From assembly GCA_005884115.1 (NCBI GenBank), contig VAXW01000005.1:248001-312000 (forward strand): DNA of 64,000 bases. The letters run 5' to 3'. A program made the position numbers and the translations under genes. This DNA is from Actinomycetota bacterium (GTDB taxonomy: Bacteria > Actinomycetota > Thermoleophilia > Solirubrobacterales > Solirubrobacteraceae). Shown in pieces: positions 362 through 4,515 of this stretch (positions within the stretch are counted from its first letter, which is position 1; the number at the start of each line of letters is the position of its first letter). The notes below the pieces were generated by a model. That model was not told the DNA's origin. It did no database searches and worked only from the letters and a program-made list of their open reading frames with translations.

Positions 362-2782
362 GTGGCAACCTGCCTGGTCACGGGAGGCGCGGGCTTTCTC
401 GGCTCGCACCTATGCGACGAGCTGCTCGCGCGCGGAAACAGGGTCATCTGCGTGGACAACCTGGAGACGGGCTCGCTCGCGAACATCGCGCACATCCGCG
501 ACCGCGACGTCTTCGTTCACCTCGGCCTGGACATCATCGATCCCTACGTCGTCGACGAGCCGGTGGACTTCGTCTACCACCTCGCCTCGCCGGCGTCGCC
601 GATCGACTACCTGCGGCTTCCCCTGCACACGCTGAAGGTCGGCTCCTACGGGACCCACCACACACTCGGGCTCGCCAAGGCCAAGCGCGCCCGCTTCCTG
701 CTTGCATCCACCAGCGAGGTGTACGGCGATCCCAAGGAGCACCCGCAGTCGGAGAGCTACTGGGGGCACGTGAACCCGATCGGGCCGCGCGGCGTCTACG
801 ACGAGGCCAAGCGCTACGCCGAGGCGCTGACCATGGCCTACCACCGACAGCAGGGGGTGGACACGGCGATCGTGCGCATCTTCAACTCGGTGCTCGCCGA
901 CGAGCAGCTCCTCTACGACGACGGAACCGAGCTGCGCCGGGAGACGGCCGAGCAGGCCGCGGCGCGCCTGTTGCCATACGCGTTCGCCGCCGGCTACGCT
1001 CCGCGGCGCGCGCCGGCGCCGGCCGGCGCACCCCCAGCCGCGGTATTGGAGCCGGCGCTCGAGTATCCGCTGCACGGCTACAGCGTGCCCGCGTTTGAGC
1101 GGGATGGCCGGATGGTCGCTGCCCTCGCCACGCATCTGATCGCGCATCCCACCGCGTCCCGCTGCTTTGAGGTACGGACCCGCTACGGGCGCTCGATTCG
1201 CGTCACCGGAGACCACTCGATCTTCGTCGAGGGCGCGGGCGGCGAGCCGCGGCCGTGTCCGGTGGAGCAGCTGGAGATCGGCGACCGGGTGGCGATCGCC
1301 AGACGCATCGAGGTGCCCGAGCGCGACCGCTACGCGATCAGGATGCTGGACGTCTGGCGCCACGCCGAGGAGGATGAGTGGAACCTCGAGGTCGAGGCAG
1401 AGGGCTTGGGCGAGCTCGTGTGGGCTAAGCGTCGCGAGCTGTTTGGCATTCTCGTATCGCAGCGACGTAACAACGGGCCCAATTGGCGCAATGGCGCCTG
1501 GACCAAGCTCATCAGGATGCGGCACGCCAATCGGGCGCCGATGCCGATCCTGCGACGCGTCCTCGACGATCTTCCGCAGGGCGCTCGCGTGCGCAGGCGT
1601 CGTCCCGGCAAGTCCTCCACGCTCCCCGCCCGGATCGAGATAACCGATGAGTTGCTGTGGCTGCTCGGCCTGTGGGTCGCCGAGGGCTCGAGGTACGCGG
1701 GGCGCAAGGGCGGTTACTTGACGATCTCATGTGAGGAGCCGGTGCTTCGCCGCGCCGCGAAGATCATCGAGGACCAGCTCGGGCTGCACGTGGTGCACGC
1801 GCCCGCGAGTGACGCTCGCGCCGCAGCGATCTACGTCCACTCGTACCTGCTGCTGGCGCTCATGGGTCACCTGGGTTTCGAAGCAAACCGCAAGCGGATC
1901 CCCGGGTGGATCCTCGGCCTGCCGCTGAGCCGGTTGAAGTGGTTCATCGAGGGCTACCGGGAGGGCGATGGTGTGCACTCGGGACGACGCCTGCAAGACG
2001 GCGTCCACCACGTGTTCGCGACGACCAGCGACGAGCTGAAGGACGATCTCATCGTCGCGCTCGCGCGCTTCGGCATCCTCCCGTCGGTCGGCCGTTATTC
2101 GTCGCGCATCAAGAAAAGGACCGGCGACCGACGCTATCCGTTCTGGACGTTGACCCTGTCCAGTGTCCGGCCGTGGAGCCCGCTGGAATGGGATTCCGGT
2201 GTGACGCAAGCGCTTAACGCACGTCTCAGCGGCGATCTGGTGTGGGCTTCAGTCACGGGGATCGAAGAGATCGAGGCCACGCCGCTCGTGTACGACTTCT
2301 CGGTACCTGGCCGTGAAAACTTCTGGGCGGGGACGGGCGTGCTTGCCAAGAACACCTACGGGAGCCGCATGCGTCCACACGATGGACGCGCGATACCGAC
2401 GTTCCTGCGCCAGGCGCTGGCGAGCCGGCCCGTGACCGTGTTCGGCGACGGCAGCCAGACGCGTTCCTTCTGCTACGTCAGCGACTTGGTCCGGGGCATC
2501 ATCGCGCTGGCCGAGTCCGGCTACCACGACCCCGTCAACATCGGCAACCCCGATGAGTTCACGCTGCTCGAACTCGCAGAAGTCGTCAGAGAGCTGACGG
2601 GCTCGAGCTCGGAGATCGTCTACGAGGCGCTCCCCGTCGACGACCCCAAGCAGCGCCGGCCCGACATCACGCTCGCGCGCGAGCTGCTCGGCTGGTCGCC
2701 CGAGGTCCCGCTGCGCGAGGGCTTGCAGCGCACGATCGAGGAGTCCGGCATCGAACTGCTGGTGGGGCGCAGCTCGGGCTGA
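362..2782 (+). CDS. UDP-glucuronate decarboxylase (UDP-xylose synthase) interrupted by an intein
   Basis: A short-chain dehydrogenase/reductase that converts UDP-glucuronate to UDP-xylose with bound NAD. The N-terminal extein (175 residues) has the Rossmann motif [11 protein letters not shown], the family block [14 protein letters not shown] and the catalytic YDEAK (Tyr-x3-Lys). The conserved RIFN|TYG motif is split by an intein, after which the C-extein (142 residues) continues [18 protein letters not shown]. The spliced product would be about 317 residues, the usual size of bacterial UXS, so splicing should give a normal enzyme. GTG 362 was chosen because the family begins only a few residues before the Gly-rich loop and a -10 hexamer lies just upstream; ATG 269 is in frame but adds 31 atypical residues. 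UDP-xylose would be a sugar donor for the polysaccharide made by this locus. Confidence 0.9.
887..2353 (+). other. Intein with LAGLIDADG homing endonuclease in UDP-glucuronate decarboxylase
   Basis: This is a 489-residue in-frame insertion between Asn of RIFN and Thr of TYG. It begins with Ser ([13 protein letters not shown]) in place of the commoner Cys. Block B is [12 protein letters not shown] with the Thr/His pair. Two LAGLIDADG helices, [13 protein letters not shown] (about bases 1651-1690) and [13 protein letters not shown] (about 1933-1970), each keep an acidic residue, so the endonuclease may be active. Block F reads [17 protein letters not shown] and the element ends AKN, followed by Thr as +1 nucleophile. 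The penultimate residue is Lys where most inteins have His. Known biology: such elements self-splice after translation and home into intein-free alleles. Boundaries follow from restoring the host motif exactly. Confidence 0.92.
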
Positions 2783-2877: not shown

Positions 2878-4515
2878 GTGAGCACAGAGATGGGACCGCG
2901 CCTGACGCAAACGTCCGCTCCGTCCGCCCCATCGGCTCGTGAGGCCTCCTCCCCGCAATCGGCGCCCGCGCGCGCTCAGCAGCGCCTCGGCCGCGTCACC
3001 TCGGCTCCGCTGAGCTCGGCCGCGCTGCGCCCGTCCCTGCCCGCGGCGATCGAGCGCAGGTTGCATTCCGAGCACGATATGCGCCGCAAGCGCCCCCCGG
3101 CGCTCTCCTTCGCTCTGCGTGTGGCCACCCTCCGACGCCTCGCGCGAGTGGTGTCGCTGCTCGCCCTCGACTTCGTCGGCGTCGCGCTTGCCATCTTCAC
3201 CGCGTTGATGCTGAAGGCGATCGTGCTCGACCACGTCGACGTAAGCGCCGCCGTGCATGAAACCGAACGCATCCTCGCGTTTGCCTACCTGCTGACCGCG
3301 CTCCTGTTCGCGCGCTCGGGCCTGTATGCAGAGCGCGCGCAGCGCCCCGGCCTCTCGCGGATCGTCGGCTCGCTGTTTCAGGTCGCGTTCGTCGCCCTGA
3401 TCTTCGCGGTCGTCTCCGGCGAACACTTCTCCAGCTACTACCTCTTCTACGGATCGCTGGCCTTCGCCCTGCTGTACGTCTCCTCGATGCGCGCGGCGTA
3501 CGAGTGGCTGACCGGCGCCGCGCTGCGCGCGGCCGGCTATCGCCGGCGCGCGGTGCTCGTCGGGGACGCGAAGCACATCGGCGATCTCGCGCGGGCGCTC
3601 GGCGACGCCGCGCACGCCCCCGTCGAGGTCGTCGGCTATCTCTCCGCGGATCTGCGGCCAGCGAGCGGCGTGCGCCCGCTGGGCTCGCTCGATGACCTCG
3701 ACGGAGTGCTCGCGCGCGAGCGGATCGACGAGGTCATCATCGCCGGGCCCGACTTCCCGCAGGTGGAGGCCGTCGAGCTGGTCGACCGTTGCCACCAGCG
3801 CGGCGTGCGCGTGCGCTTGGCGCCGTCGACGATGGAGATCCTGATCCACCGTGCGGAGTTCGTGCCCGGCCACTCGGTGCCCCTGTTCGAGCTCGGTCCG
3901 CCCGTTTTCGAGGGCGTCGACTTCGCGCTCAAGCGCAGCTTCGACATCGTCGGAGCGACGCTCCTCCTGGTGCTGCTGAGCCCGCTTCTGCTCGCGATCG
4001 TGATCGCCGTGCGCGTCTCCTCGCGTGGCCCCGTCGTATTCCGCTCGCTGCGCCGCGGCATCGGCCAGCGCCCGTTCGAGTGCCTGAAGTTCCGCACCAT
4101 GCACACCGACGCTGAGCAGCGCCAGGTCGAGCTCGAAGAGCTCAACGAGGCCACCGGCGCGCTCTTTAAGATTCGCGAGGACCCGCGGCTCACGCACGTG
4201 GGGCGCCTGCTGCGCCGCTTCTCGCTCGACGAGCTGCCGCAGCTGATCAACGTGCTGCGGGGGGAGATGTCGCTCGTCGGACCCCGCCCGCTGCCCCAGC
4301 GCGACTACGAGATGCTCGCCGACTGGCACCGCAAGAGGTATCTGGTGCTGCCCGGGATCACAGGCCTGTGGCAGGTCTCAGGCCGCTCTGAGCTCGACTT
4401 CGACGATCTCGTGCATCTCGACTTCATCTATCTCGAGCACTGGTCGCTGGCGCTGGATCTCACGATCCTGCTGAAGACGATTCCCGCCGTACTGTCTCGT
4501 CGCGGCGCCTACTGA
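2878..4515 (+). CDS. Polyprenyl-phosphate sugar-1-phosphate transferase (WbaP/ExoY type), copy 1
   Basis: A 545-residue initiating transferase that moves a hexose-1-phosphate from a nucleotide sugar to undecaprenyl phosphate at the inner membrane face. The N-terminal half has several hydrophobic helices and a CoA-binding-like region. A membrane helix starting KRSFDIVGATLLLVLLSP (near residue 352) precedes the catalytic domain with RRGIGQRPFECLKFRTMH, SLDELPQLINVLRGEMSLVG (from residue 451), GPRPLP and the closing PGITGLWQVSGR block. The first 60 or so residues are Ser/Pro/Ala-rich and look disordered. The GTG at 2878 has TAAAAC at 2869-2874 and no ribosome-binding site. It follows the xylose synthase by 95 bp and probably shares its operon. 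A second, different copy lies at 30968-32506. Confidence 0.92.
   Translation: MSTEMGPRLTQTSAPSAPSAREASSPQSAPARAQQRLGRVTSAPLSSAALRPSLPAAIERRLHSEHDMRRKRPPALSFALRVATLRRLARVVSLLALDFVGVALAIFTALMLKAIVLDHVDVSAAVHETERILAFAYLLTALLFARSGLYAERAQRPGLSRIVGSLFQVAFVALIFAVVSGEHFSSYYLFYGSLAFALLYVSSMRAAYEWLTGAALRAAGYRRRAVLVGDAKHIGDLARALGDAAHAPVEVVGYLSADLRPASGVRPLGSLDDLDGVLARERIDEVIIAGPDFPQVEAVELVDRCHQRGVRVRLAPSTMEILIHRAEFVPGHSVPLFELGPPVFEGVDFALKRSFDIVGATLLLVLLSPLLLAIVIAVRVSSRGPVVFRSLRRGIGQRPFECLKFRTMHTDAEQRQVELEELNEATGALFKIREDPRLTHVGRLLRRFSLDELPQLINVLRGEMSLVGPRPLPQRDYEMLADWHRKRYLVLPGITGLWQVSGRSELDFDDLVHLDFIYLEHWSLALDLTILLKTIPAVLSRRGAY

Follow-up and report, generated by a model that had tools for sequence, protein, structure and literature searches.

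The window analysed here, a stretch of 64,000 nucleotides from an Actinomycetota genome, contains a gene in which a sequence-only reading had recognized an intein with a LAGLIDADG endonuclease. The host was read as an enzyme of nucleotide-sugar metabolism, and the first Ser and the penultimate Lys of the insert were taken as a possible sign of conditional or slow splicing that would gate UDP-xylose supply. Two questions are raised by the locus: (i) whether the insert is a genuine intein that would be able to splice; and (ii) whether it controls the supply of its host enzyme, or is simply a mobile element. We consider it very likely that the insert is a complete intein of class 1, belongs to the Ser1/Thr+1 (oxyester) subgroup and has a LAGLIDADG homing endonuclease, and that it is a selfish homing element moving between actinomycete lineages.

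An intein in a UDP-glucuronate decarboxylase gene

The open frame spans positions 269-2782 (837 codons), with GTG 362 as its probable start. Within it, 489 in-frame residues that begin with Ser (SVLADEQ) and end with Lys-Asn (GVLAKN) lie between the flanking motifs RIFN and TYG, so that Thr is the residue that follows (Table 1). When the insert is removed, 175 + 142 = 317 residues remain, counted from GTG 362. Translation thus bears out the first residue, penultimate Lys, length and remainder given by the sequence-only reading.

Table 1. Features of the interrupted gene, in window positions.
Feature	Position	Strand	Basis
N-extein of UDP-glucuronate decarboxylase, 175 aa, ends RIFN	362..886	+	Pfam Epimerase/GDP_Man_Dehyd; intein-free homologues; start inferred
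Intein, 489 aa, Ser1 to Asn489	887..2353	+	Pfam, family alignment, model, fold match
Ser1, first splicing nucleophile	887..889	+	Ser in 14/14 members with that end; role inferred from class 1 chemistry
His87, candidate NX-region histidine, preceded by Ala86	1145..1147	+	His in 15/15 members; aligned to PI-PkoII
Block B / motif N3, T107-G-D-H110	1205..1216	+	T107 and H110 in 15/15 members
First LAGLIDADG helix, acid E266	1646..1687	+	Glu in 13/15 members; outside PF14528 match
Second LAGLIDADG helix, acid D361	1925..1972	+	Asp in 15/15 members; PF14528 match 352-406
C-terminal splicing region including block F, penultimate Lys488	2288..2353	+	Family alignment
C-extein of UDP-glucuronate decarboxylase, 142 aa, starts Thr+1 (TYG)	2354..2779	+	Intein-free homologues

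Profile searches of the insert alone exceeded both curated Pfam cut-offs, with 44.4 bits for PF14890 (Intein_splicing; cut-off 35.8) and 29.5 bits for PF14528 (LAGLIDADG_3; cut-off 22.5), the latter match being confined to the second repeat. An AlphaFold2 model based on a ten-row family alignment has a mean pLDDT of 82.3 and a pTM of 0.86, with low confidence at residues 39-50, 363-372 and the last nine. In a Foldseek comparison with the PDB, the best match of the model is 2cw7 (PI-PkoII; E 4.7e-25), followed by VMA inteins, PI-PfuI and PI-SceI, and the first 9 of the 56 matches at E 0.001 are inteins with an endonuclease. PI-PkoII is also the best PDB match by sequence (60.1 bits). It has the same Hint and LAGLIDADG layout, the same Glu and Asp acids and a His that aligns with His87, although identity is 17% in the fold alignment; its host is an archaeal DNA polymerase. 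By the PF14890 score and the fold match, then, the insert has the in-frame Hint splicing domain of a class 1 intein, and the proposal of an intein with a LAGLIDADG endonuclease is sustained.

Searched in full, the frame gave a further Pfam match, to the NAD-dependent epimerase/dehydratase family. To name the host more closely, an intein-free congener (L039) was compared with solved enzymes. It matched human UDP-glucuronate decarboxylase 1 (UXS1) with 359 bits, vs 141 for the next solved family; this closeness clearly points to a UXS as the host gene. No second UXS-like gene was found in the window genome, which is 88% complete, the next-best match of the N-extein scoring 78.5 bits vs 397.

The boundaries of the intein can be read from relatives that do not have it. 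The N-extein was searched in 41 genomes, and the host locus was read for 30. The intein is present in two of these loci: L033, which is the locus of the window itself, and L057, from genome G165. In all of the other 28, 18 of which are from the same genus, FNT[YF]G runs unbroken through the site, including a locus in which the motif is changed by one residue to R-T-F-N (L058). An unbroken site in 28 of 28 intein-free loci implies that the boundaries are exact; together with the scores of L039, these alignments confirm both UXS as the host and FN/TYG as the motif that is split.

A trivial explanation would be that the insert is an assembly chimera or a misread. The assembly is incomplete (3.14 Mb, 87.8% complete), and the intein profile matches it in two places (E 0.001), both within the UXS gene. 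However, the insert lies in the interior of a 1.2 Mb contig, and 14 further assemblies, including that of the named strain Virgisporangium aliadipatigenens NBRC 105644, have an insert of this kind at the same position. An artefact is thus exceedingly unlikely. The insert is real, well bounded and ordinary in kind, and its sequence makes it very probable that it can splice like other known inteins.

What is less ordinary is the host. Replication, recombination and repair proteins host 62% of bacterial inteins (PMC5874633), and the sequence-only reading was right to call a sugar-nucleotide enzyme uncommon. It is nonetheless precedented, because UDP-glucose 6-dehydrogenase is among the intein hosts listed for Halobacteria in PMC4071816. 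That enzyme likewise acts on nucleotide sugars, at the step that produces the substrate of UXS; the halobacterial udp intein nevertheless belongs to another enzyme and another domain of life. We also note that the gene downstream of UXS (2878-4515, plus strand) resembles by eye an undecaprenyl-phosphate sugar transferase, in which case UXS would sit in a surface-polysaccharide cluster.

The intein family and its distribution

After copies of the same contigs were merged, the family consists of 15 distinct members: the window intein (W), L063-L071, L074, L075, L076, L078 and L079. All are hosted by UXS as far as their flanks extend and share a single site, every junction present reading RIFN/S and N/T[YF]G. 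The contigs of L067 and L079 stop before the start and the end of the intein, respectively, and end residues are therefore counted over 14 members rather than 15. In L064 (195-1478; 428 aa), the shortest complete member, about 60 residues are deleted in frame where the splicing part adjoins the endonuclease part.

Of 296 phylum genomes searched at the protein level, 44 had a match: the window intein itself, four others at 55-66% identity, and 39 that are far weaker (E 3.7e-11 or worse). A scan of a species-genome collection gave nine loci, with named carriers that include Thermoleophilaceae, Acidimicrobiia, Ilumatobacteraceae, Nitriliruptorales and Virgisporangium. A family profile built from the first ten rows was then run on further genome sets, which overlap. 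It found the intein in 7 of 396 genomes drawn from the phylum, in 7 of 232 genomes (7 of 54 genera) of the window's own order, and in 1 of 3, 1 of 39 and 3 of 4 genomes in groups round known carriers. Such scattered presence over Actinomycetota is as expected of a homing element.

Other hosts in the phylum have inteins that resemble the UXS intein in part. The host of L084 is a dCTP deaminase and that of L082 an anaerobic ribonucleotide reductase (NRDD, 460 bits). Judged by eye, the dCTP deaminase and NrdD inteins (L084; L082 and L083) start with Ser. The dCTP deaminase intein is 36-37% identical to the UXS intein over the two best stretches; in the NrdD inteins, the final 43-44 residues are 50-53% identical to it. 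Their ends are different: the dCTP deaminase intein (L084, 339-2387, plus strand) has Ser-Asn before Thr and is thus another intein that lacks the penultimate His, whereas the NrdD inteins (L082, 1321-5859, plus strand; L083, 735-5603, minus strand) have His-Asn before Ser. At both NrdD loci there seems, by eye, to be a second intein-like stretch upstream that ends in SHN before Cys.

Splicing residues and the penultimate lysine

The nucleophiles, block B residues and terminal Asn of a class 1 intein are present throughout the family: Ser1, Asn489 and Thr+1 occur in every one of the 14 members that include the end concerned, and Thr107 and His110 in all 15. A conventional pathway can thus be proposed. 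After translation, the Asn-Ser bond would be attacked by Ser1 and the chain would then be passed to Thr+1. Cyclization of Asn489, with Lys488 in place of the usual His, would follow, and ligation of the two exteins would give a normal UXS of 317 residues.

The serine at position 1 had been taken as a hint of slow splicing. Instead, it marks an established subgroup: Ser or Thr alone occupies both junctions in about 10% of inteins, and Ser1 inteins are described as a minority class distinguished by an NX His of their own, which invariably follows Arg or Lys (PMC10189870). The 58 Ser1/Ser+1 and Ser1/Thr+1 class 1 inteins aligned there, PolB16 OarG included, have in common with the UXS inteins Ser1, Thr+1, a histidine at the NX position with which His87 aligns and the N3 His110. 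In a sequence alignment with PI-PkoII (2cw7), His87 falls on the His of Ile-Arg-His, and we infer that it is the NX His. The residue before it sets the UXS inteins apart, being Gly in nine members, Ala in five and Glu in one, in contrast to the Arg or Lys that PMC10189870 gives without exception.

A penultimate His is usual in class 1 inteins, although it is not a requirement, and in the window it is replaced by Lys488. Among 14 members, the residue is His in 11, Lys in two (the window and L064) and Arg in one (L063). In the intein tree, the three Lys/Arg members group together at 86/88 (not starred), and a single change, in either direction, would account for them. His is absent from the last 45 residues of all three, so that no block F His substitutes for the missing one; this leaves no evident helper, except the Lys or Arg itself, for the step that the penultimate or a block F His usually assists. 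Besides position 488, columns 24, 86, 296 and 407 differ between the three and the 80% majority of the His members, in a comparison that omits L079, whose end is missing. Column 86, just before His87, is Ala in the three Lys/Arg members and also in 2 of the 11 His members, and is at best a weak candidate for a covarying change tied to the penultimate residue.

Inteins with unusual penultimate residues are already known from mycobacteriophages, where Gly, Lys or Ser is found at this place (PMC5050341). These are class 1 inteins, some with Lys as in the window; those studied differ from the UXS intein in that they start with Cys and are hosted by phage genes. The RDF intein, with a penultimate Gly, splices faster than its own His mutant, and the cited His mutants of such inteins splice more, less or equally, depending on the intein (same paper).

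The sequence-only reading had proposed that the penultimate Lys slows or conditions the last splicing step, such that the intein gates the supply of UDP-xylose. The three Lys/Arg members, with no His near the end, are in keeping with this idea, as is the finding of one UXS-like gene in the genome, which is 88% complete. On the other hand, most members retain the penultimate His, and odd-penultimate inteins given a His become faster, slower or unchanged (PMC5050341). Relatives evidently manage without the intein, 28 of the 30 host loci read being empty, and a Lys/Arg residue that fits one change in the tree may be one lineage's drift. We therefore regard gating as very unlikely and, as the main reading of the locus, it finds no support in sequence, family or context. 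A combined scheme is also very unlikely. In it, the Lys/Arg lineage, with no His in the C-terminal splicing region and an altered NX motif at its Ser1 active site, would use Lys or Arg rather than His to assist Asn cyclization; pH or ions would then govern how fast the intein splices, and so tune UDP-xylose for a surface polysaccharide seemingly made by the neighbouring genes.

The endonuclease and proposed homing

Two LAGLIDADG helices with one acid each can be identified, the second by PF14528 and the first by alignment and by the model, where it forms a helix at residues 254-266; its alignment with PI-PkoII is in a weak stretch only (13.5 bits). Both acids are kept in the window, as had been claimed. 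If the selfish reading is correct, the free intein would cut intein-less UXS alleles at or near the junction of ATCTTCAAC and ACCTACGG, and would be copied into the cut allele by repair. DNA identity is 92% over the 10 bases before the site and 70-78% over the 30 bases after it; since 10-base steps range from 70 to 92% next to the site and from 70 to 93% across all 120 bases, the site does not stand out clearly in conservation from the DNA around it.

The second acid, D361, is invariant, and the first, E266, is replaced by Lys in L079 and by Ala in L076, both of which are probably natural endonuclease-dead forms, judging from their sequences. With the first acid lost in 2 of 15 members, homing may have ceased in parts of the family. 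Such losses fit the cycle of invasion, fixation and loss through which inteins are described as passing (PMC4071816).

It could be argued from these losses that the intein is degenerating: the change to Lys and other losses would make splicing incomplete, and UXS would be crippled or dispensable. The penultimate Lys and the loss of the first endonuclease acid in two relatives can be cited in favour. Against this, the frame of the window gene is open, it retains the two endonuclease acids along with the remaining splice residues, and GC at codon position 3 is 0.84. In addition, all seven pairs tried have dN lower than dS, in the splicing part as well as in the endonuclease part (for L074/L076, 0.16 vs 1.31 and 0.19 vs 1.28, respectively), dS being near saturation in most pairs, which makes the ratio rough. 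The host exteins are 82-91% identical to 18 homologues from the same genus. Degeneration is thus very unlikely.

Descent and proposed transfer

Because the selfish reading involves movement between lineages, the histories of intein and host were compared. The intein tree places W with L063 and L064, whereas the host tree places L063 and L064 with L079 (97/96). The intein data do not reject the host grouping of L063, L064 and L079 (p-AU 0.085), nor a single clade of the seven own-order rows (p-AU 0.38); the host data reject, though only mildly, the group of W, L063 and L064 seen in the intein tree (p-AU 0.032, for a group picked after seeing the tree). By path, the window host is nearest to L075 and L078, of the same family, and the window intein to L064 and L063, which come from another family of the same order. 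The window intein is 65% identical to that of L067, and the hosts are 54% identical, over the C-extein only. The trees and identities suggest transfer of the intein between lineages, the formal tree tests being weak; patchy presence is the better evidence. Vertical descent was rejected on the grounds of that patchiness, the conflict between the intein and host trees being weak.

Carriage by a phage or plasmid was considered as well and set aside, as no vector was seen among the viral contigs or plasmids searched. Two peptide patterns matched 67 stretches of the viral contigs, of which none was confirmed as a relative, and a search of plasmids at E 1e-5 gave no relative. Four phage records match at 26-33% identity, over at most 50% of the query and starting at residue 246 or later.

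Implications

The new points are the UXS host, a Ser1 family with an altered NX motif and a sublineage with Lys or Arg at the penultimate place. No report of an intein in UXS was found among the open-access papers searched, and in that sense the locus adds an intein allele and a host. The UDP-glucuronate/UDP-xylose route now has two enzymes in which inteins are seen. Finally, the 15 natural sequences of the family, all from a single site, have an unusual NX motif and vary between His, Lys and Arg at the penultimate residue; this set is suited to the study of serine activation in Ser1 inteins and of asparagine cyclization without His.
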